Of a stretch of DNA of 8,455 bases, positions 1-8,455 are shown piece after piece (position 1 is the first letter of the stretch; the number at the start of each line of letters is the position of its first letter). The stretch comes from Candidatus Omnitrophota bacterium (lineage in GTDB: Bacteria > Ratteibacteria > UBA8468 > B48-G9 > JAFGKM01). The notes under the pieces are model-generated. The model made no database searches and was not told the origin of the DNA. It worked only from the letters and a program-made list of their open reading frames with translations. The DNA is taken from positions 1 through 8,455 of the forward strand of contig JAMWDI010000013.1 in assembly GCA_023819375.1 (NCBI GenBank). Reading direction: 5' to 3'. The translations under genes and the position numbers were made by a program.

Positions 1-10
1 AGGTGAAATT

Positions 11-727
11 ATGAAAAGGAAAGGTTTTACATTAATAGAATTGCTTGTAGTAGTGGCAATCATAGCGATACTTGCAGCAATGCTTTTACCTGCTCTAAGT
101 AAGGCACGTGAAAGAGCAAGACAGGCAGTATGTGTAAGTAATTTAAAACAAATAGGAAATGCATTACTTATGTATCTCCAAGATTATGATTATATACCTT
201 TTGGTTATGTTGAAGGTGGACTTTTCAGTGGCTATGCAGATCCTAGAATTGGTGCGTGGTTTTTCCTTCTTTCAAAGTATCTTAATGTTCCTACTTATGA
301 TTTTTATAGATTGGGTGGACCCGCATGGGGAAACTGGTTAAGAAAACCATGTGTATTTACCTGTCCAACTCAAAGATTTAAATGGCCTAATGAGCAACCC
401 GTTTCTTATGCTCCTCCTATATCAATTCTTACAGGGGTTGACTGGACTGGTGTCTTAGGAACATCTCCTTACAAAATGGCAAAATATCAAATGGTTAAGA
501 AGCCAAGCGAGAAGGTTTTTATAGCAGATACTAATTCTCCATTTCATTTTAACCCCTGGCAGATAGATTTATTTCCATTAAATGGAAATTATGCATTAGA
601 AAGGCATTCAAATGGAACAAATGTTTTATACTTTGATGGACATGCTGGATGGATAGATAAAAATACTTCTTTAAAAAATGATAATGACTTAACCTTTACA
701 GGAATATTTAGACCCTATGATAAATAA
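11..727 (+). CDS. Pseudopilin with prepilin N-terminal methylation motif and H-X9-DG domain
   Basis: The 238-residue product starts with a short basic leader, a prepilin peptidase site between G5 and F6 (FTLIEL), Glu at mature position +5 (E10), and a hydrophobic helix to about residue 28. This is the class III signal of type IV pilins and type II secretion pseudopilins, so the protein should be processed by PilD and sit in the inner membrane or a pseudopilus. Near the C-terminus H199 is followed by exactly nine residues and then D209-G210, within a FDGHAGWI stretch. This is the H-X9-DG signature of the DUF1559-type pseudopilins abundant in PVC bacteria. The start is supported by AGGTGA at positions 1-6. 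The gene lies 13 bp before a secreted beta-propeller gene and is probably the first visible member of the operon; anything upstream is outside the window. The role of these paralogous pseudopilins is unproven; a part in exporting or displaying the downstream enzymes is inference. Confidence 0.95.
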
Positions 728-740
728 AGAGAAGTAGGTT

Positions 741-3137
741 ATGAGAAAATTTTTGATTTGTTTATTTATATTTTTTTCATTTAATTTATTTTCAGAAGTT
801 TTATGGCGTTCAATTGGACCTGGTCTTTTTGGGGCAATGTTTGGGGTTGGTATTTCCCCACACAATCCCAACATAATAGTTGCTGGAGTTGATATGGGTA
901 ATGTGTTTATGACAGAAGATGGAGGGAAAAGTTGGCAAATAATCGGAAAAAATGAAAATAAAGATGGAGGCTTTGGAAATCCAGGGTATAGAGGTGTATG
1001 GAGTGTGTGTTTTGACCCTAAAAGAGAAAATATAATTTATATAGGTTCTGAACATGGACTCTATAAAACAATAGATAAAGGTAAAAACTGGAAATTAATT
1101 TTAGGTGGAGACCCAAGTTATACAATAGGAGCAATTGAAATAGACCCAACAGACCCAAATATAATTTATGCTGCAAATGGAAGAGGTGCAAGAATAAATA
1201 TTCCATGGGCTCGTGGTCGTATTTGGAAAAGTATTGATGGAGGAAAAAATTGGAAAGAAATTACACCAAAAGGACTTATTGAAGAAAATAGAAAATGTTG
1301 GAGTTGTATTGTAATTGACCCTATGAGTCCGTTTATAAAAAAGGAAGGACATCAAAGGATTTATATTTCAGGACAGGCAGGATTTTTTGTTTCTGAAGAT
1401 GGGGGTAGGACATGGAATGATTTAGAGGAATTTTTGCCTGGTGGAAAAATAAACTTAACACCTAATGGACCTTATACAAGTGGAATCTCAACTATTTTTC
1501 TTGCTCCTGGTAATAAATTTTCAAAGATATATGCCTCTATTCGTGTAAGACAGATTGAACAAGACAAAAAAACTATTGGAGGAGTTTATCTTTCAGAAGA
1601 TTGTGGAAAAACATGGATACCTAAAAACAATGGACTTGAAAAAGCAATTTCAGGAATGGAATGGCAATATAAACAAAAATTTCCTTACACTTATTCAATT
1701 TTAGTTGGGTGCAAATCAAAACCTGAAATTATGTATCTTTCCTGTGTTTATGGAATTTACAAAACAACAGATGCTGGTGAAAATTGGTTTAAAACTCTTA
1801 ATGATGGTTCTGATTGGGTAAAGTTAAATATTGATGGAAGAGATTATCTTTATACTTTAAGAAAACATGAAACAAATTTAATTCAAAGTTATTATAATTA
1901 TTTTGGTCCAGCAAATGGTCTCGCTGTTTGTAGCAAAAATCCAGATATTGTTGCTTATACAGATAATGCTACAATTGGAGTAAGTTACGATGGAGGTAAA
2001 ACTTGGACAGAACCTGGATTTGAATTTGGAGAAGCAATCTGGCCCAATAGATTTGGAGATAGACCTCCTATGCGACTAACACATAAGGTTCGTTCAACTG
2101 GTCTTCAACTAATCGTTCCTATTGATTTGGCAGTTGACCCATTTGACCCAAAAACAATTGCAATAGGTCATTGTGATATAGGACTTATGATTTCAAGAGA
2201 TAATGGAAACTGGTGGGAATGGGCTTATACTGGAATTATTGGCGGAGAAAAAAATTATATAAGAGCGGTATTATATGACCCAGAAGTAAAAAATAGATTA
2301 TGGGTTGCGGGTGGAGGATGGGATAGTAGAAATGGAGTTGGTCATGTTTATCAAAGTGATGATGGTGGAAAAACTTTTAAAGTTATTGGAATTCCACATC
2401 TTGAAGAAAAAAAGGGTTTATTTAAAAGAGGTCCTTATATAAATGCTCTTTGTTTAGACCATAATTCTAAAAAAGAAGAAAGGATTATTTATGCTGGAAC
2501 AGATGCAGGAATATATAAAACACAAGATGCTGGCAAAACATGGGAAGAAGTTAAAATAAATGGGAAAGAAAATTTGTCTGTAAAAATATTAATGCTTGAT
2601 TCAAAAAACAAAAAAATTTATGCATCTGTTTATGGAGATTATGGAGAAGATTCAGAAAATTGGGGCCTTTTTGTTAGTGAAGATGGAGGTAAAAACTGGA
2701 GAAAAACAGGAGAAAATATTTTTGGAGTTGTAAGGAATATTTCTATATATTATTCAAAAGGAATTATATATGTTGTTGCAGACGAAAAAGATGAAAAATT
2801 TAGTTATTGGACAAATCGTTCTTTATGGAGAAGCGATGATTATGGGAAAACATGGAAAAAAATTGTTGAAAAAAAACTTATTGCATGTGTTGGTTGTCAT
2901 CCAGAAAATCCAAATAAAATTTATATGGTTATATTTGCAAATGATATAAGAAAAGAAAAAGTTAATGTATTAAAAAGTTTAGATGGTGGAAAGAAATGGA
3001 TTTCTATTGCAAATAATATCCCTCTTTCTCCTGGTGGACTATATAATAAAATTGTCTTTGACCCTAATAATCCAAACAGATTCTTCTTACTTCACAATAG
3101 TGGAACATATGAATGTATAGATGGAGGTGAAAAATGA
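741..3137 (+). CDS. Secreted Asp-box (BNR/sortilin-like) double beta-propeller, GH74-like
   Basis: The 798-residue protein has a signal peptide (about residues 1-18, hydrophobic core then FS|EV) and is mostly beta-propeller. I count thirteen Asp boxes (S/T-x-D-x-G-x-x-W type) starting near residues 57, 109, 163, 217, 284, 341, 414, 484, 538, 593, 645, 697 and 745. A fourteenth begins near 791 but stops before its Trp. About fourteen blades and roughly 800 residues match the tandem seven-bladed propellers of GH74 xyloglucanases. GH74 uses one catalytic Asp per propeller, in a D-[IV]-G context. Here AGVDMGN (D51) and GHCDIGL (D479) fall in the equivalent places, each just before an Asp box. That supports a GH74-like endo-beta-glucanase, but a non-catalytic sortilin/VPS10-like binding propeller remains possible because Asp-box proteins are diverse. 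The ribosome binding site is weak (AGAGAAGTAGG before ATG 741). The stop overlaps the next start as ATGA, indicating translational coupling. Propeller and secretion are sure; the reaction and substrate are not. Confidence 0.93.
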   Translation: MRKFLICLFIFFSFNLFSEVLWRSIGPGLFGAMFGVGISPHNPNIIVAGVDMGNVFMTEDGGKSWQIIGKNENKDGGFGNPGYRGVWSVCFDPKRENIIYIGSEHGLYKTIDKGKNWKLILGGDPSYTIGAIEIDPTDPNIIYAANGRGARINIPWARGRIWKSIDGGKNWKEITPKGLIEENRKCWSCIVIDPMSPFIKKEGHQRIYISGQAGFFVSEDGGRTWNDLEEFLPGGKINLTPNGPYTSGISTIFLAPGNKFSKIYASIRVRQIEQDKKTIGGVYLSEDCGKTWIPKNNGLEKAISGMEWQYKQKFPYTYSILVGCKSKPEIMYLSCVYGIYKTTDAGENWFKTLNDGSDWVKLNIDGRDYLYTLRKHETNLIQSYYNYFGPANGLAVCSKNPDIVAYTDNATIGVSYDGGKTWTEPGFEFGEAIWPNRFGDRPPMRLTHKVRSTGLQLIVPIDLAVDPFDPKTIAIGHCDIGLMISRDNGNWWEWAYTGIIGGEKNYIRAVLYDPEVKNRLWVAGGGWDSRNGVGHVYQSDDGGKTFKVIGIPHLEEKKGLFKRGPYINALCLDHNSKKEERIIYAGTDAGIYKTQDAGKTWEEVKINGKENLSVKILMLDSKNKKIYASVYGDYGEDSENWGLFVSEDGGKNWRKTGENIFGVVRNISIYYSKGIIYVVADEKDEKFSYWTNRSLWRSDDYGKTWKKIVEKKLIACVGCHPENPNKIYMVIFANDIRKEKVNVLKSLDGGKKWISIANNIPLSPGGLYNKIVFDPNNPNRFFLLHNSGTYECIDGGEK
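3123..3130 (+). promoter_or_regulatory. Shine-Dalgarno for the third gene, embedded in the last Asp box
   Basis: GGAGGTGA lies 3 bases before the ATG at 3134, with the GGAGG core 6 bases away. The same bases are the Gly-Gly-Glu codons of the final, incomplete Asp box of the upstream gene, whose TGA overlaps the ATG. The site fixes the start of the third gene and supports translational coupling. Confidence 0.85.
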
Positions 3138-4069
3138 AAAAAATTTTTATTTTTTGTTTATTTTTAAATTTGCTTTTTTGTGAGGAAACAAAAAAAATAT
3201 TAGTTGAGAGTGGATTTTATGACAGAGAAAATGAAATTGTAAGGGTTGAAATTGATTTTGGGAAAGAGATAGACATAAATAGTTTAAAATTACTTGAAAA
3301 AGATAAAAAAGTTGATTTTTATTTTATTGCAAAAGAAAATTTTAAAGGGGACCTTTATTTTATTGTTGATAAACTTCCTTCTTTAACTTCAAAAGAATAT
3401 ATTTTATACTTCAATCCTGGGAAATGGGAGAAAAAGGCGATTGGAAATGAAGAGATATATTATAAAAAATCTTCTTTAAACCTAATTCCTAATCCTGGTT
3501 TTGAAAAAATAAAAGAAGACAAGCCTGTTGACTGGACATTACAGGATTACCCATGGTCCTATAGAGAACTTTCTAACATAAAATCATTTTGTAGATTAAC
3601 TACTGAAGATAAATTTGAAGGAGAAAGAAGTTTAAAATTATCTTCAGAAATAAGAGATGATAAGTTTATTCCAGGATTTGCTTCTTCTTCCATATTTCCT
3701 TTGAAACCAAAAACAAAATATAAACTTTCCTATAAACTAAAAGTTACAAAAGTAAATAAAGAAAAATTACAAACTCACTCCGCAGTAATTGTAGAAGTCC
3801 AATTACTTAATGAAAAAAAAGAAAGAATATATCCAAAAGATTATTCAATTAATAGAATCTTATGTGCTTATAATCTTTCAAGAAATTTACCCGATGAATA
3901 TTTAAATAAATGGATTGAAAATTTTGTTGTACAAGAAACTGCAGAAGAAGTAAGGTATGGATTGGTATGGATTTCTTTCTGGCAGGTTGAAGCAGAATAT
4001 TTTATTGATGATTTATCTTTAATTGAAGTTGAAGCAAAAGAACCAATGAAAATAAAAGTAGTTGATTAA
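3134..4069 (+). CDS. Secreted protein with C-terminal CBM4/9-like carbohydrate-binding jelly-roll
   Basis: The 311-residue product has a signal peptide (MKKIFIFCLFLNLLFC, then acidic EE). Cys16 followed by Glu resembles a lipoprotein site, but Phe at -1 is not a normal lipobox residue, so lipidation is doubtful. Residues about 20-110 form a beta-rich domain of no family I can name. From about residue 116, LIPNPGFEK opens a typical galactose-binding-like/CBM4_9 domain, followed by a bulk-aromatic stretch (DWTLQDYPW), EGERSLKL, and the closing strand YFIDDLSLIEVE near 291-302. Such domains bind polysaccharide chains and are usually appended to hydrolases. No catalytic domain is present here, so the protein is probably an accessory binding protein for its neighbours. 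It overlaps the propeller gene by 4 bp and lies 21 bp before the GH123-like gene, so it is probably co-expressed with both. Ligand unknown. Confidence 0.9.
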   Translation: MKKIFIFCLFLNLLFCEETKKILVESGFYDRENEIVRVEIDFGKEIDINSLKLLEKDKKVDFYFIAKENFKGDLYFIVDKLPSLTSKEYILYFNPGKWEKKAIGNEEIYYKKSSLNLIPNPGFEKIKEDKPVDWTLQDYPWSYRELSNIKSFCRLTTEDKFEGERSLKLSSEIRDDKFIPGFASSSIFPLKPKTKYKLSYKLKVTKVNKEKLQTHSAVIVEVQLLNEKKERIYPKDYSINRILCAYNLSRNLPDEYLNKWIENFVVQETAEEVRYGLVWISFWQVEAEYFIDDLSLIEVEAKEPMKIKVVD

Positions 4070-4090
4070 ATAAGTAAAAAAGGAGAAAAG

Positions 4091-6427
4091 ATGAAGAAAT
4101 TTATATTTTTAATATTTTGTCTGATTTCTTTTTTATTTTCACAGGATAATGTTTTTCTTTTTGATATGGGGCCAGAAAATTCACCAGTTCTTGAAAATTT
4201 CATAAAAATTACAGAAAAAGATATTTATCAGACAGGTAAATACGGATGGGAAACAAAAAACTGTTTATCTTTTGATCAAAATTTTTCAAAATATGCAGAG
4301 GGAAGTTTAGATTTAGACCCTTTGTTAAGAGATTTTGTAAAAAGCAATTCACATTTATCAATTATATTTTCTGTTGATGTCCCAAAAGGGAAATATAATG
4401 TCGGAATAATTGCAGGCCAAATATATACAGGAAATTCATTAGTTGCTCCTTCTATCTGGTATTCTGAATGTTATATAAGGATAAATGACAAAAAAATCTT
4501 TGAAAAAGAATATGATTTCATAAAATATGCAAAATTTATTTTTTCAAGATACGAAGATGATTTTATTCCAGGAGATAGTTTATTTAAAAAATATATTCTA
4601 CCCTACTATCAAATAATAAAAACATCAACAGACGAGATTGAAAAAATAAAAATTGAATTTTCAAGTGCTGTCCCTGTGAACGGGATTATAATTTATCCAG
4701 ATGAAAAAACTTTAGAATTTAACAAAAAAATAGAAGAAATCATTGAAAATTCAAAAAAGTATGTAGATGATAAATTCAAACTGATAGAAGTTAAAAAAGA
4801 GGAGGGTTTAATAAAAAAGTATAAGGACGAGAGTTTTTTAACTTTTTCAATACCATATTATGAGAAATTAACACCGTATTTAATACCTAATGAAGAAAGA
4901 ATAAATCAACCAATAAAAAAGACATGTTCAAAGGGTGAAAAAATAATTTTAAGTTTTGGGATATTACCTATAAAGGATTTAAAAAATGTTGAATTGGAAA
5001 TTTCAGATTTAATTTCAGATAGTAAAGACAAAATTCCAAAAGAAAAATTTTCTTTTTGGTTAACAAAATACATTCCTGAATTACAAAAACAAAGTCCTGG
5101 TAAATTTTCAATTGAGGAAAAATATGCTTTAAAATATAAAAAATCTGATTTTGTTTCTTTGATCCCAAAAAAAATTTTACTTATCACAGAAATTCCAGAA
5201 GATATTAAAGATGGAGAATATAAGGGGAAGATAACTATAAAAAGTGGAAATTATTTAAAAGAATTACCTATAAGTATAAAAGTTTTACCATTTAAACTTG
5301 ACGAATCAGATATTTATTTTGGTTTTTATACTAAGTATCCCCGAAGTTCTTTATTTAGATATATAACAAAAGAAGATGAAATCTTTACAAATTTTTGTAA
5401 CTCTTTGATGGAAAACATTTTAAAGGAAATGAAAGAACTTGGATTTAATTGGGCATGTATTGAAAAACCGTGGCATCCAATAATAATTAAAGATGAGAAA
5501 ATAGAAATAACACCAAATTTAAAAAAATGGGACACAGTATATTTACTTTACAAAAAATATTTTCCAAAAGCGCCATTTATAATATATAGTCAAATTTCTC
5601 CAAATGTACCTTATAATCTTGAAGGATGGAGGAAAACTGGCTTTACAGAAGAGATCAAAAAACAAACGCAGTTAGTTATTGATTGGGTCTCAAGTTATTT
5701 TGAAAAAGAAAAATGCGAAAGAGAAATTGCAATATATATAAGCGATGAATTAAGTAATTGGGGACTTGAAGGAGGGAAATTTGGTGTTGAAAAAGCAAGT
5801 TTAATGAAAAAAATTGTTGAAGGGAAAAATATAAAACTTTTTGCCTCTATGAATGGAATACCTGAACACTCAATGATTCCTTATTTGGATTTTTCTGTTA
5901 TTAATTTTGATTTTCCTATAACAGAAGAAACAATTAATAAAATAAAATCTGCAGGAAGTAAACTCGTTTTTTATAATATTGGAAATAATAGATTTTCATA
6001 TGGTTATTACATAGCAAAATTAAATCCTTTTGGAAGATTACAATGGACTTTTGGGCCGGAACATAATATCTTTTATAATTTTCCTTCATTCCTTACACTT
6101 GGACATATTAATTACGCCACAATAATTGATTCTGATTTTAACATTGGAAAGAGGATGGATGTAATAGATATGTCCGAAGGCGTTACTGATTACAGATATT
6201 ATTTGACATTAAAAAATTTAATAGAAAAAAATAAAGGCACCAAAGACAAGAAGTTAAAAGAAATTTTGGACAATTCAGAAAGTTTTTTAAAGTATTTAAC
6301 CAGTTCTATTAAAACAGATATAAGGTATTATGTTAGAGAAGCAACTCCATTTAATAGTGAAACTTGTGAAAAAATTAGAACTATGATTGCGAATTATATA
6401 ATGGAGGTTTTGAATGCGAATAAATAA
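4091..6427 (+). CDS. Secreted GH123/DUF4091-like glycoside hydrolase with N-terminal malectin-like domain
   Basis: The 778-residue protein begins with a signal peptide (about residues 1-18, LFS|QDN). Residues about 20-205 open with FLFDMGPENSPV and a YGW motif and end with an IEFSSAVPVNGIIIYP strand. This is the pattern of malectin/galactose-binding-like domains on polysaccharide-active enzymes. Residues about 260-400 form a beta-sandwich (DGEYKGKITI, then LPISIKVLPFKL) like the middle domain of GH123 and DUF4091 proteins. The rest is a TIM-barrel-like region containing IAIYISDEL, with adjacent D552-E553 matching the catalytic Asp-Glu pair of GH123. GH123 beta-N-acetylgalactosaminidases use the substrate's acetamido group in catalysis. 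FYNIGNNRFSYGYYIAK and the late EGVTDYRYY segment (E696-Y703) are also characteristic. GH123 proteins are usually shorter; the extra N-terminal domain accounts for the length. AGGAG at 4081-4085 supports the start. A hydrolase of N-acetylated hexosaminides is the best guess, but DUF4091 members are mostly untested. Confidence 0.92.
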   Translation: MKKFIFLIFCLISFLFSQDNVFLFDMGPENSPVLENFIKITEKDIYQTGKYGWETKNCLSFDQNFSKYAEGSLDLDPLLRDFVKSNSHLSIIFSVDVPKGKYNVGIIAGQIYTGNSLVAPSIWYSECYIRINDKKIFEKEYDFIKYAKFIFSRYEDDFIPGDSLFKKYILPYYQIIKTSTDEIEKIKIEFSSAVPVNGIIIYPDEKTLEFNKKIEEIIENSKKYVDDKFKLIEVKKEEGLIKKYKDESFLTFSIPYYEKLTPYLIPNEERINQPIKKTCSKGEKIILSFGILPIKDLKNVELEISDLISDSKDKIPKEKFSFWLTKYIPELQKQSPGKFSIEEKYALKYKKSDFVSLIPKKILLITEIPEDIKDGEYKGKITIKSGNYLKELPISIKVLPFKLDESDIYFGFYTKYPRSSLFRYITKEDEIFTNFCNSLMENILKEMKELGFNWACIEKPWHPIIIKDEKIEITPNLKKWDTVYLLYKKYFPKAPFIIYSQISPNVPYNLEGWRKTGFTEEIKKQTQLVIDWVSSYFEKEKCEREIAIYISDELSNWGLEGGKFGVEKASLMKKIVEGKNIKLFASMNGIPEHSMIPYLDFSVINFDFPITEETINKIKSAGSKLVFYNIGNNRFSYGYYIAKLNPFGRLQWTFGPEHNIFYNFPSFLTLGHINYATIIDSDFNIGKRMDVIDMSEGVTDYRYYLTLKNLIEKNKGTKDKKLKEILDNSESFLKYLTSSIKTDIRYYVREATPFNSETCEKIRTMIANYIMEVLNANK
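6403..6407 (+). promoter_or_regulatory. Shine-Dalgarno for the fifth gene inside the fourth gene's coding end
   Basis: GGAGG, 6 bases before the ATG at 6414, lies in the final Met-Glu-Val codons of the GH123-like gene. The two genes overlap by 14 bp in different frames. The site fixes the start of the CBM9-like gene and implies translational coupling. Confidence 0.8.
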
Positions 6428-7778
6428 AATTTTGATTATACTTCTTTTATTTAAAATCATTCTTTTTTCTTCTGATTTTATAACCTTAAGATGGGACAAT
6501 ATTAAAAATATTAAAGAACTTCCAAAAACTATTGATTTTAAAATTCCATATATAAAAATTGAAGATGAGAAAAATTTAACAAATGAGATTATAAATAAAG
6601 GTTATAAAATTGAAGATTTTAAAGTTTATCCAACTGGTCAAGATCCAAAATTTAAAGCAAAAGCATTTATTTGTTATGATGACGAAAATTTATTAATTTA
6701 TTTTGAAAGTGAAAAATCAGAAAATTATTCTTTAAAGAGTAGACGATTTGAAAAAGAAGAAGGGAAAATATGGAATGATGATAATTTTGAAATTTTTATT
6801 GACCCATTTTATACAAAAAAAAGATACTATCATATAATAATAAATTCAATAGGAGAAATTTACGATACCATAAATTATATAGAAGAAATACCTGACCCTA
6901 AAGCAGCTGACCCAAAAGAAACAAAGAAGAGTTTTATAATTGATATGTCATGGAATTCAAAAGTAAAATGTGATATAATTGTTGAAAAAAACTATTGGTC
7001 AATTACTTTAAAAATACCTTTTTCAAGTTTTGGATTTACAAAAGTTCCTATAGGTTCTTTTATAGGAATAAATTTATGTAGAAATTACTGGGAAACAAAC
7101 GAACTTTTACAATGGAAATTAACACCTGGTGAAGGGGGATTTCATCAACCTGACAAATTTGGAGTTTTGGAAATTCAAGAAACTGGCAATAAAAATCTTC
7201 CTAAAATTTCAATTAATAATTTTTTACCTGGATATGGTGAAAACTTGTTATTTATTTCGTACAAAAAAAACTATGATACTCCAGAAGAAGTAAATGTAGA
7301 AATCAGCATAGAAAATGTTGATACAAAAGAAAAAATTATTAAAAATGAAAGAGTCGTTTTTACAGATAGAAAGAATACCATACAAATACCTTTTGAAAAT
7401 AAATGGAAGGGACAGAACATTTTTTACTATCTAATAGGTTCTAAAAATTATTCCTTTGGCAATATGGATTTTGTTAATTTGAAAAATTTAATGGATATAA
7501 AATTGGACAATTTGTTTTTATATCCTGAAGAAAAAGGGTTAAATGGAAAAATAAGAATTCATTTAGGGGAAGGAGAATTGAGAAAATGTGAATTATTAAT
7601 TAAATTGAACGAAAAAAATAAAACAGAAAAAATCAAAGGAAATTTATGTGAATTTTTTATAGACACTAAAAATTTAAAAGAAGGTGAAAACAGATTTTCA
7701 ATTGCTCTTTATAGAGACAAAAAAAATAAAATTGAAGAATTTGAGTTCAAAATTTTTAAGTTACCAAAAATGTTTTAA
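6414..7778 (+). CDS. Secreted protein with CBM9-like sugar-binding domain
   Basis: The 454-residue product has a hydrophobic signal peptide (MRINKILIILLLFKIILFSS, probable cleavage near residue 20). Residues about 25-256 match the carbohydrate-binding family 9-like domain. FICYDDENLLIYF (85-97) is followed by IWNDDNFEIFIDP (119-131), YYHIIINSIGEIYD (138-151), a central W-N-S strand, and a closing FHQPDKFGVLEIQE strand (243-256). The order and spacing of these strands are what I expect for the family. Residues about 265-454 form further beta-rich, Ig-like segments without a recognised motif. No catalytic residues are evident, so it probably binds glycan for the two presumed hydrolases upstream. 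The gene overlaps the GH123-like gene by 14 bp and is the last gene of the operon, ending in TAA at 7776-7778. No T-tract hairpin follows it. It is strongly A-rich, like the gene before it. Confidence 0.92.
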   Translation: MRINKILIILLLFKIILFSSDFITLRWDNIKNIKELPKTIDFKIPYIKIEDEKNLTNEIINKGYKIEDFKVYPTGQDPKFKAKAFICYDDENLLIYFESEKSENYSLKSRRFEKEEGKIWNDDNFEIFIDPFYTKKRYYHIIINSIGEIYDTINYIEEIPDPKAADPKETKKSFIIDMSWNSKVKCDIIVEKNYWSITLKIPFSSFGFTKVPIGSFIGINLCRNYWETNELLQWKLTPGEGGFHQPDKFGVLEIQETGNKNLPKISINNFLPGYGENLLFISYKKNYDTPEEVNVEISIENVDTKEKIIKNERVVFTDRKNTIQIPFENKWKGQNIFYYLIGSKNYSFGNMDFVNLKNLMDIKLDNLFLYPEEKGLNGKIRIHLGEGELRKCELLIKLNEKNKTEKIKGNLCEFFIDTKNLKEGENRFSIALYRDKKNKIEEFEFKIFKLPKMF

Positions 7779-7780
7779 TT

Positions 7781-8151
7781 TCATTTAGCATAGTTCTGAA
7801 TTAATAGTATCAAAGGGTCAATTTTAAAATAATCCTTTAAAATTGTAGATTAGAGGTATATATAAAATTTTTCATTATCATCTTTTATTGGAGAATTTTT
7901 GGCCTTTTTGATTTATTTACTAATTCATTTTTTATCTGATTAAAATTTTTCTCACTGTTTTCTTTGTCTTTTCATATGTCTGAATTATAAACTTCCTTGC
8001 TATTATCTTATCTGCCATTAACAATTCTCTATAACTGGATAATATATTTCTAAATTCTTCATTCTTTTCTAAAAATCTCTTCTGTAATCTTTTTTGCCTC
8101 TCTTTTACTCTATGGAATAAATACCTCTCTTAACCATATATTACTTCTCAT
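7781..8151 (-). pseudogene. Decayed minus-strand gene, family unknown
   Basis: No intact gene lies in the 458 bases between the operon and the next ATG, but the minus strand gives several protein-like pieces. From an ATG at 8151 comes MRSNIWLREVFIP, then TAG, then SKREAKKITEEIFRKE in the same frame. In the next frame an open stretch of 65 codons without an ATG near its start (8129-7932) includes EEFRNILSSYRELLMADKII. A third frame then gives NELVNKSKRPKILQ. A last piece, ILKDYFKIDPLILLIQNYAK, ends with TGA at 7783-7781, only 2 bp past the stop of the operon's last gene. The plus strand is clearly pyrimidine-rich from about 7920 to 8180, the reverse of the genes before it, which fits a former minus-strand gene. 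Purine-rich DNA reads as charged helix in every frame, so the exact frame path is uncertain. I do not recognise a family. A hint of parvulin-like sequence around SKREAKKITEEI is too weak to use. Confidence 0.35.
7819..7845. repeat. Perfect 10-bp inverted repeat, 7-base loop
   Basis: CAATTTTAAA (7819-7828) and TTTAAAATTG (7836-7845) are exact reverse complements separated by ATAATCC. The hairpin lies 40 bp after the operon's last stop. The stem is almost entirely A/T and has no T-tract on either side, so it is a poor intrinsic terminator. It could be a weak 3' structure or chance in AT-rich DNA. Confidence 0.4.
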
Positions 8152-8221
8152 ATCTTATCTACCTTGTCTACCTAAAAAGGTTTTTAAACTTTACATAAAT
8201 TTTTAATAACGCTTTTATTAA

Positions 8222-8230
8222 AAGGAGAGG
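8222..8230 (+). promoter_or_regulatory. Strong Shine-Dalgarno before the broken MBL-fold gene
   Basis: AAGGAGAGG lies 6 bases before the ATG at 8237. It is the best ribosome binding site of the window, showing that the 5' end of the hydrolase gene is intact although its body is not. No acceptable -35/-10 pair was found upstream. Confidence 0.75.
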
Positions 8231-8236
8231 AGAAAA

Positions 8237-8317
8237 ATGATTGAAAATATTAAGTGGTTGGGACATGCTTCTATTTTAATTTCAATTGGTGGGAAAAATA
8301 TTTATGTAGATCCTTGA
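8237..8317 (+). pseudogene. 5' fragment of a metallo-beta-lactamase-fold hydrolase (UlaG/UPF0173-like)
   Basis: After a strong ribosome binding site, 26 codons read MIENIKWLGHASILISIGG and then KNIYVDP before a TGA at 8315-8317. The pattern I-K-W-L-G-H-A-S, hydrophobic strand, then Y-V-D-P is the N-terminal beta-hairpin of UlaG/UPF0173-like MBL-fold metal-dependent hydrolases. In these the next residue is commonly Trp (DPW). The codons after the TGA, Arg-Leu, would also suit the family, so the stop looks like a TGG to TGA change. The HxHxDH metal-binding motif and all the rest of the protein are absent; within a few codons the frame turns into aminotransferase sequence. The gene is therefore non-functional as it stands. 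Identification rests on a short segment but the motif is distinctive. Confidence 0.7.
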
Positions 8318-8329
8318 AGACTTGTTAAG

Positions 8330-8455
8330 AGAGTTGGTTTTGCGGTAGGGAATAAATATATAATAAAAGCGCTTGCAAAACTTAAAAGTTACTATGATTA
8401 TGGTGTCTTTACTCCAATACAGGTTGCTTCTATATGTGCTTTAAGGCTTGATGAA
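8330..8455 (+). pseudogene. Internal fragment of an AlaC-like class I aminotransferase
   Basis: In the same frame as the MBL-fold fragment, from codon 32, the sequence reads RVGFAVGN, then [20 protein letters not shown] and [10 protein letters not shown] up to the window edge. This matches PLP-dependent fold-type I aminotransferases of the AlaC/aspartate aminotransferase group, in which (G)WR-[VI]-GF follows the Schiff-base lysine segment SKTYNM and KSYxDYGxFTPxQVA is characteristic. R32 corresponds to the Arg that contacts the PLP phosphate. Everything upstream, including the catalytic lysine, is missing and replaced by the hydrolase start. With no usable start of its own and a TGA 13 bases upstream, the fragment should not be translated. 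The 3' end continues beyond the window. The breakpoint lies roughly at 8318-8330. Confidence 0.75.

Follow-up and report, generated by a model that had tools for sequence, protein, structure and literature searches.

Polysaccharide utilization loci (PULs) of Bacteroidota are operon-type clusters in which a nutrient-sensing regulator is combined with exported binding proteins and glycoside hydrolases. The pilin units described here share this composition. However, they use GntR, LacI, ROK, or AraC regulators and place a pseudopilin ahead of the cargo, and no SusC/SusD-type pair was seen in the source genome by a genome-wide search for the TonB plug domain, which was positive in E. coli, Caulobacter, and Bacteroides controls. 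The only plug domain in the genome (C9:20512) lies outside the units, 13 kb from the nearest pilin.

T2SS pseudopilins (GspG-J) and competence pseudopili have the same N-terminal helix and prepilin processing as the pilins of these units, and competence pseudopili pull a polymer, DNA, inward. The polysaccharide-holding pilins of the pil locus also bear comparison, yet they are encoded in a pil locus, whereas here each nutrient operon has a pilin to itself; in R. albus 7, pilin genes show no differential expression on cellulose. In planctomycetes, according to the available passages of one report, dextran binds pili-like fibers at crateriform structures and enters the periplasm by active uptake, through a route given there as unknown (PMC5394234). 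The likeness lies in a fiber that binds polysaccharide before periplasmic uptake follows; the differences are that another phylum is concerned and that those passages leave the fiber proteins unnamed (PMC5394234).

The H-X9-DG/DUF1559 (SBP_bac_10) family of PVC bacteria, which shares with the pilins of these units the prepilin motif, the C-terminal H-X9-DG motif, and a large paralogous expansion, ranks among the largest PVC protein families and has no known role. It comprises 74 genes in R. baltica (PMC2754498) and 68 paralogues in P. limnophila, two of which are essential (PMC10632474). The family is described only as large and of unknown function, or as "solute binding" (PMC2754498, PMC10632474, PMC4807772), and no tight link to sugar-sensing regulators, exported glycan proteins, or ZnuABC was found in the passages on DUF1559. 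A search of the open literature, with subscription papers and preprints outside its scope, returned no description of a regulator-pilin-cargo unit.

The window, that is, the whole stretch of DNA analyzed here (8,455 nt), constitutes the entire contig C10 of a Candidatus Omnitrophota genome (G000; 1.73 Mb, 13 contigs). Its features are as follows.

1..127, + strand: 127-bp repeat spanning the pilin ribosome-binding site and the pilin 5′ end
11..180, + strand: swapped module, the N-terminal helix region shared with the pilin at C7:1603
11..727, + strand: H-X9-DG (DUF1559-type) pseudopilin, 238 aa, with a prepilin motif and C-terminal H-X9-DG
741..3137, + strand: protein 2, BNR/Asp-box propeller, 798 aa, predicted exported, GH74/sialidase-like by domain and PDB matches
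3134..4069, + strand: protein 3, 311 aa, predicted exported, weakly CBM4/9-like
4091..6427, + strand: protein 4, 778 aa, predicted exported, GH123 N-terminal domain
6414..7778, + strand: protein 5, 454 aa, predicted exported, CBM9_1 domain at residues 76-255
8329..8455, + strand: 127-bp overlap equal to the start of C7 and to the reverse complement of the start of C8

The five open reading frames are separated by 13, −4, 21, and −14 bp, in agreement with the tight order and spacing described in the earlier note. Terminator-like and promoter-like sites are not in excess over shuffled sequences in the block, and no credible internal terminators were found. The first gene encodes an H-X9-DG pseudopilin, as had been read from the sequence: N_methyl (E 2.5e-9, 36.8 bits against a cut-off of 21.2), DUF1559/SBP_bac_10 (E 4.9e-9), and TIGR02532 (34.7 bits against 16.3) all score above their cut-offs, and the motif is exact. 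Its membership in the H-X9-DG group is nevertheless borderline by TIGR04294, which gives 20.7 bits, above the cut-off, in the genome search and 17.6 against 19 in a whole-protein scan. The pilin is distinguished from T2SS GspG by a score of 44.2 bits with the equivalog TIGR01710 (cut-off 88.85) and by alignments to solved pilins that end at about residue 71.

The cargo assignments of the earlier note fare unevenly. "GH74-like" is fair wording for protein 2, whose Sortilin-Vps10 match (E 1.2e-35) indicates propeller similarity only and whose top PDB match, 6p2k, is followed by a "cellulase," 7kn8. For protein 3, "CBM4/9-like" reduces to a faint resemblance, with CBM_4_9 at 12.9 bits (E 0.15), or 16.2 bits (E 0.014) in the orthologue, against a cut-off of 25.9; the protein was found in the source genome and one sister species only among 35 phylum genomes. 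"GH123-like" applies to the N-terminal domain of protein 4 (PF22680, 31.5 bits against 27, E 1.9e-7), while its C-terminal, catalytic half has no match in a Pfam search. An SDELSN stretch shared with the orthologue contains an Asp-Glu at residues 552-553, a possible catalytic pair. Protein 5 is CBM9-like as proposed (CBM9_1, 31.8 bits against 23.4, E 1.7e-7). A Sec-type signal can be recognized by eye at the start of all four cargo proteins; a simple predictor is positive for proteins 2-4 only, the hydrophobic stretch of protein 5 containing a lysine. For proteins 3 and 4, the AlphaFold models (pLDDT 38 and 35, from two-sequence alignments) were unusable as evidence of fold.

The same five genes occur in the same order, at a contig edge, in the sister species "Candidatus Omnitrophota bacterium DG_2.bins.143.Tibet," with 69-79% protein identity over the three cargo proteins compared. 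The block is thus conserved where present, yet accessory, because the full-length cargo set (three of the four proteins searched) is found in only 2 of 35 phylum genomes, a pattern that recalls the accessory, rapidly exchanged PULs of Bacteroidota.

That the block is led by the pseudopilin, as the earlier note had it, cannot be read from the window, which begins 10 bp 5′ of the pilin start and is cut within the pilin 5′ repeat. Positions 1..127 recur unchanged at the end of C7 and, in reverse complement, at the end of C9; the contig breaks because of this repeat, and for the same reason the window lacks the upstream regulator. A comparison of all contig ends gives C8(rc)-C7-C10-C7-C9(rc) as the simplest path, and the C7 end is the only sequence found to lead into the window pilin. 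From these overlaps, rather than from a single read, we infer a C7-C10 join, which would place a regulator upstream of the pilin. C7 also carries a second unit, which lies past the window end.

C7:9789-10841: regulator, GntR with Peripla_BP_3, 350 aa, ending 14 bp before the window pilin
C7:557-1588: regulator of the second unit
C7:1603-2409: pilin of the second unit
C7:2430-4847 and 4844-7876: exported proteins of the second unit

About 30 units of this kind are found in the source genome, each with an H-X9-DG pseudopilin followed by one to four predicted exported proteins, mostly glycan-binding proteins or glycoside hydrolases, at a pilin-to-first-cargo distance of about −40 to +42 bp. The earlier note had made its proposal depend on an enrichment of such genes behind the pilins, and this enrichment is present: of 35 genes immediately downstream of a pilin, 31 encode an exported protein, whereas among other genes the proportion is 46 of 244 (odds ratio 33, p = 5e-16), and at least one of the four scored as non-exported starts with an evident signal sequence missed by the rule. 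The first cargo gene is also long (median 716 aa versus 266 aa). Neighbor counts for export and for regulators refer to the pseudopilin stretches plus seven control stretches, less than half of the source genome, with genes called by a simple script and signal peptides by a simple rule. In a Pfam tally of 47 downstream proteins, CBM9 (9), GH123, GH42, GH2, GH67N, GH39, NAGLU, laminin-G, and CBM4/9 are prominent; 44 control exported proteins comprise secretins, SurA, PDZ, TPR, and similar proteins, with none of the cargo glycan families among their top families.

The association is stronger than first stated, in that a ligand-sensing GntR, LacI, ROK, or AraC regulator lies directly 5′ of the pilin in about half of the units. 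A regulator occupies position −1 or −2 of 15 of 34 pilins, against 5 of 378 other genes, and 15 of 29 upstream proteins carry sugar-binding regulator domains (heads: 10 GntR, 5 LacI, 2 ROK, 2 AraC). The searches for Peripla_BP_3, CBM9, and secretin or machinery genes were genome-wide, and the first two provide tests that do not depend on which stretches were chosen. A pilin starts no more than 161 bp after the end of 15 of the 19 Peripla_BP_3 regulators, and 17 are linked to a pilin if one or two intervening genes are counted. Eleven of 13 CBM9 matches have a pilin of the same orientation less than 6 kb upstream, a position for which 7.6% of the strand-specific genome qualifies; of the other two, one belongs to the gene immediately upstream of a pilin, and one is cut by a contig start. 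As a description of gene order, the modular, pseudopilin-tagged, and general counterpart to PULs envisaged in the earlier note is therefore a good one. A 1297-aa pilin "fusion" at C3:2561, considered as a pilin-cargo link, is really a long N run behind the pilin read as an open frame (C3, L135:2561-6454), and the cargo of that unit is either withheld or unassembled. At C2:343.2-346.8 kb, two metabolic genes and a LacI-type regulator precede a broken pilin gene, in what appears to be a decaying unit.

H-X9-DG pilins are present in all 35 phylum genomes examined. In 40 stretches from relatives, the gene after the pilin is exported in 19 of 31 cases versus 17 of 92 (p = 2e-5), and a regulator is found at −1/−2 of 16 of 36 pilins versus 8 of 235 (p = 1e-10). 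In the Lentisphaerae genome GWF2_50_93, the regulator association recurs (12 of 34 versus 7 of 89, p = 5e-4), and GH16, GH5, GH67N, and CBM4/9 (CBM_4_9) proteins are encoded downstream of pilins; export enrichment by the simple predictor is not significant there (8 of 21 versus 9 of 30). An Armatimonadetes genome has regulators at 2 of 7 pilins versus 0 of 72, both directly preceding the pilin; in this genome and in bacterium G042, no downstream export enrichment was detected with small numbers, simple gene calling, and GC-rich DNA. Three Planctomycetota genomes gave no TIGR04294 match, and two of them gave none to PF07596 in a search that had no positive control match and so carries no weight. 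The regulator-pilin link thus recurs in at least three phyla and is wider than the pilin-glycan link. Order-level relatives encode many pilins in other contexts, such as next to Memo or homocysteine methyltransferase genes; in three such loci (L211, L212, L216), the order is Memo gene, H-X9-DG pilin, and homocysteine S-methyltransferase, and the gene after the pilin is not exported. Victivallis-type genomes are rich in H-X9-DG pilins, so part of this finding may already have been noticed.

The near-constant position of the pilin directly before exported proteins is what would be expected if an operon-specific pseudopilin joined a type II pseudopilus and helped folded enzymes across the outer membrane. 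Components for such a role exist in the source genome, where three type-4-filament assembly sets are visible. The set on C3 is T2SS-like, with a GspD secretin carrying a type II N0 domain, GspF, and minor pseudopilins; the set on C2 is T4P-like, with an ATPase, a GspF/PilC-type platform, and a secretin; and at C9:150-153 kb, a GspE-GspF pair has pilins, some of them of the H-X9-DG type, immediately behind it. A prepilin peptidase is encoded on C4, and T2SSF genes adjoin H-X9-DG pilins in two relatives. The C9:150-157 kb region (L153:90-7130), in which GspE and GspF precede five pilins, including a tandem pair that is followed by an exported protein, is a candidate for an assembly machine dedicated to H-X9-DG pilins. 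Known T2SSs, however, serve many substrates with a single set of pseudopilins, which counts against an adaptor for each operon. The co-expression architecture and the numerous CBM-bearing cargo proteins could alternatively reflect a surface pilin fiber that carries the co-encoded enzymes and CBM proteins in the manner of a cellulosome, but no shared docking domain was seen in the cargo (mean column identity 8%; none among the leading families of the Pfam tally), and such a scaffold appears quite improbable.

The two units on and next to C7 bear on whether a pilin is matched to its operon. Their regulator regions are 95% identical in DNA over 1.25 kb, and the pilins are 99% identical over the first 114 nt from the GFT motif. 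Identity then drops to chance by nt 180-200 (about codon 57 onward), and the globular domains and cargo differ. Recombination within the conserved helix has thus set one regulator-plus-helix before two globular-domain-plus-cargo sets. The crossover, in which the two units came to share a regulator and N-terminal helix and each globular part stayed with its cargo, is compatible with a globular domain that belongs to its operon and with the secretory role above. It is weak evidence for such a match, because crossovers of this kind are possible only in the conserved part.

The same exchange could arise if the regulator and the pilin 5′ end were a mobile, promoter-like cartridge spread by recombination, the pilin having no operon-specific role. 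Neighboring units with nearly identical heads and unrelated remainders, as well as the 127-bp repeats at contig ends, fit this explanation. It is nonetheless improbable: synonymous codon agreement at the pilin 5′ end is 0.49 over all pairs versus 0.47 expected from codon usage, so general gene conversion of this end was rejected and recent copying is exceptional, being confined to a few pairs; moreover, the globular domains are full-length, undecayed, and diverse.

Strict pairing of pilin and cargo was assessed by comparing the similarity of the pilin globular part with cargo homology. Among 32 cassettes of the source genome it fails, 328 of 2000 shuffles reaching the observed value. Across all genomes, pilin similarity tracks cargo homology (0 of 2000 shuffles), an effect that comes from orthologous units. 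Pilins that resemble each other can precede unrelated cargo, and cargo that is homologous at 702 bits can follow an unrelated pilin, which weighs against an operon-specific secretion adaptor.

A further group of operons carries the same kind of pilin ahead of a transporter. A pilin-ZnuA-ZnuC-ZnuB-methyltransferase operon is found in the source genome and in genomes G008 and G017, representing two families of the phylum, with ZnuA named by Pfam and ZnuB and ZnuC by position and sequence starts.

L139:5673-9263, L223:7526-11122, and L209:4679-8638: pilin-headed ZnuABC operons whose pilins share a conserved His and Cys

The pilins of G008 and G017 are 63-67% identical to that of the source genome, and gene order is kept. 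This conservation with the operon across families is at odds with a hitch-hiking pilin, and the arrangement ties the pilin, as judged from gene content, to a nutrient rather than to an exported enzyme. The main reason for preferring capture over secretion is that a protein binding zinc in the periplasm does not have to cross the outer membrane; the secretion adaptor is considered unlikely. The link between pilin and nutrient has a precedent in Legionella, where a pilin promotes iron uptake independently of pili (PMC13170364). The earlier proposal that each pilin is dedicated to exporting, scaffolding, or displaying its own neighbors finds no support in the shuffling result and the three ZnuABC operons, and the dedicated exporter or scaffold reading is overall only partly supported.

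It is tentatively proposed, short of an even chance, that the pilin serves as an inducible, nutrient-matched device for capture or uptake, in the place held by SusC/SusD in Bacteroidota. The regulator would sense the nutrient or a breakdown product and switch the unit on, after which the prepilin peptidase would process the pilin and one of the three assembly sets would build the filament. The variable globular domain, suited to the nutrient of its unit, would bind it at the cell surface or, alternatively, pass it through a secretin in the outer membrane to the periplasmic binding proteins and hydrolases encoded in the same unit. The presence of a pilin of its own, in many cases with a sugar-sensing regulator, in nearly every operon for acquiring a sugar polymer and in one for zinc suggests custom surface fibers for individual nutrients. 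The cargo could equally be secreted rather than periplasmic; among export, display, and capture, capture or uptake is favoured, with secretion second. Several findings speak against capture. The failure of pilin similarity to track cargo homology also weakens nutrient matching by the pilin, and the other pilin contexts in order-level relatives and the non-significant export enrichment in the Lentisphaerae genome point the same way. A literature search found no ligand, filament, or uptake demonstrated for any H-X9-DG pilin. The broader generalization, that H-X9-DG pseudopilins serve uptake fibers as exchangeable heads specific for single nutrients, each operon supplying its own regulator, pilin, and periplasmic enzymes to a shared assembly machine, is doubtful; if true, it would account for the dozens of such pilins per PVC bacterium.

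With these pilins attached to regulators and exported glycan proteins, a family that had no assigned role becomes a module for nutrient acquisition that can be predicted. In practice, clues to the nutrient come from the regulator and cargo, and the pilin flags the locus, where PUL finders based on SusC/D are blind. The units also provide candidate genes for the polysaccharide-binding fibers and macromolecule uptake of planctomycetes. If the generalization to interchangeable heads is correct, outer-membrane bacteria would possess a further general route for large molecules besides TonB/SusCD and secreted enzymes with porins.

Beyond the block, positions 7779-8236 of the window form an AT-rich, gene-free stretch of about 460 bp ahead of the next unit, in which an RNA family search gave no match. 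No related sequence was found in viral contigs. Positions 8181-8455 hold decayed genes: a UlaG-like start (MIENIKWLGHASILISIGGKNIYVDP) is interrupted by a stop codon, which a longer paralogue on C9 (L157:10397-11017) lacks at the corresponding place, and the frame continues into an aminotransferase-like remnant that is also present at the C7 start. On C7, positions 473-1719 and 9730-10972 form a direct repeat, 95% identical, of regulator and pilin 5′ end. The assembly graph is compatible with a duplication of the whole of C7 flanking the window contig or with an excised circle.
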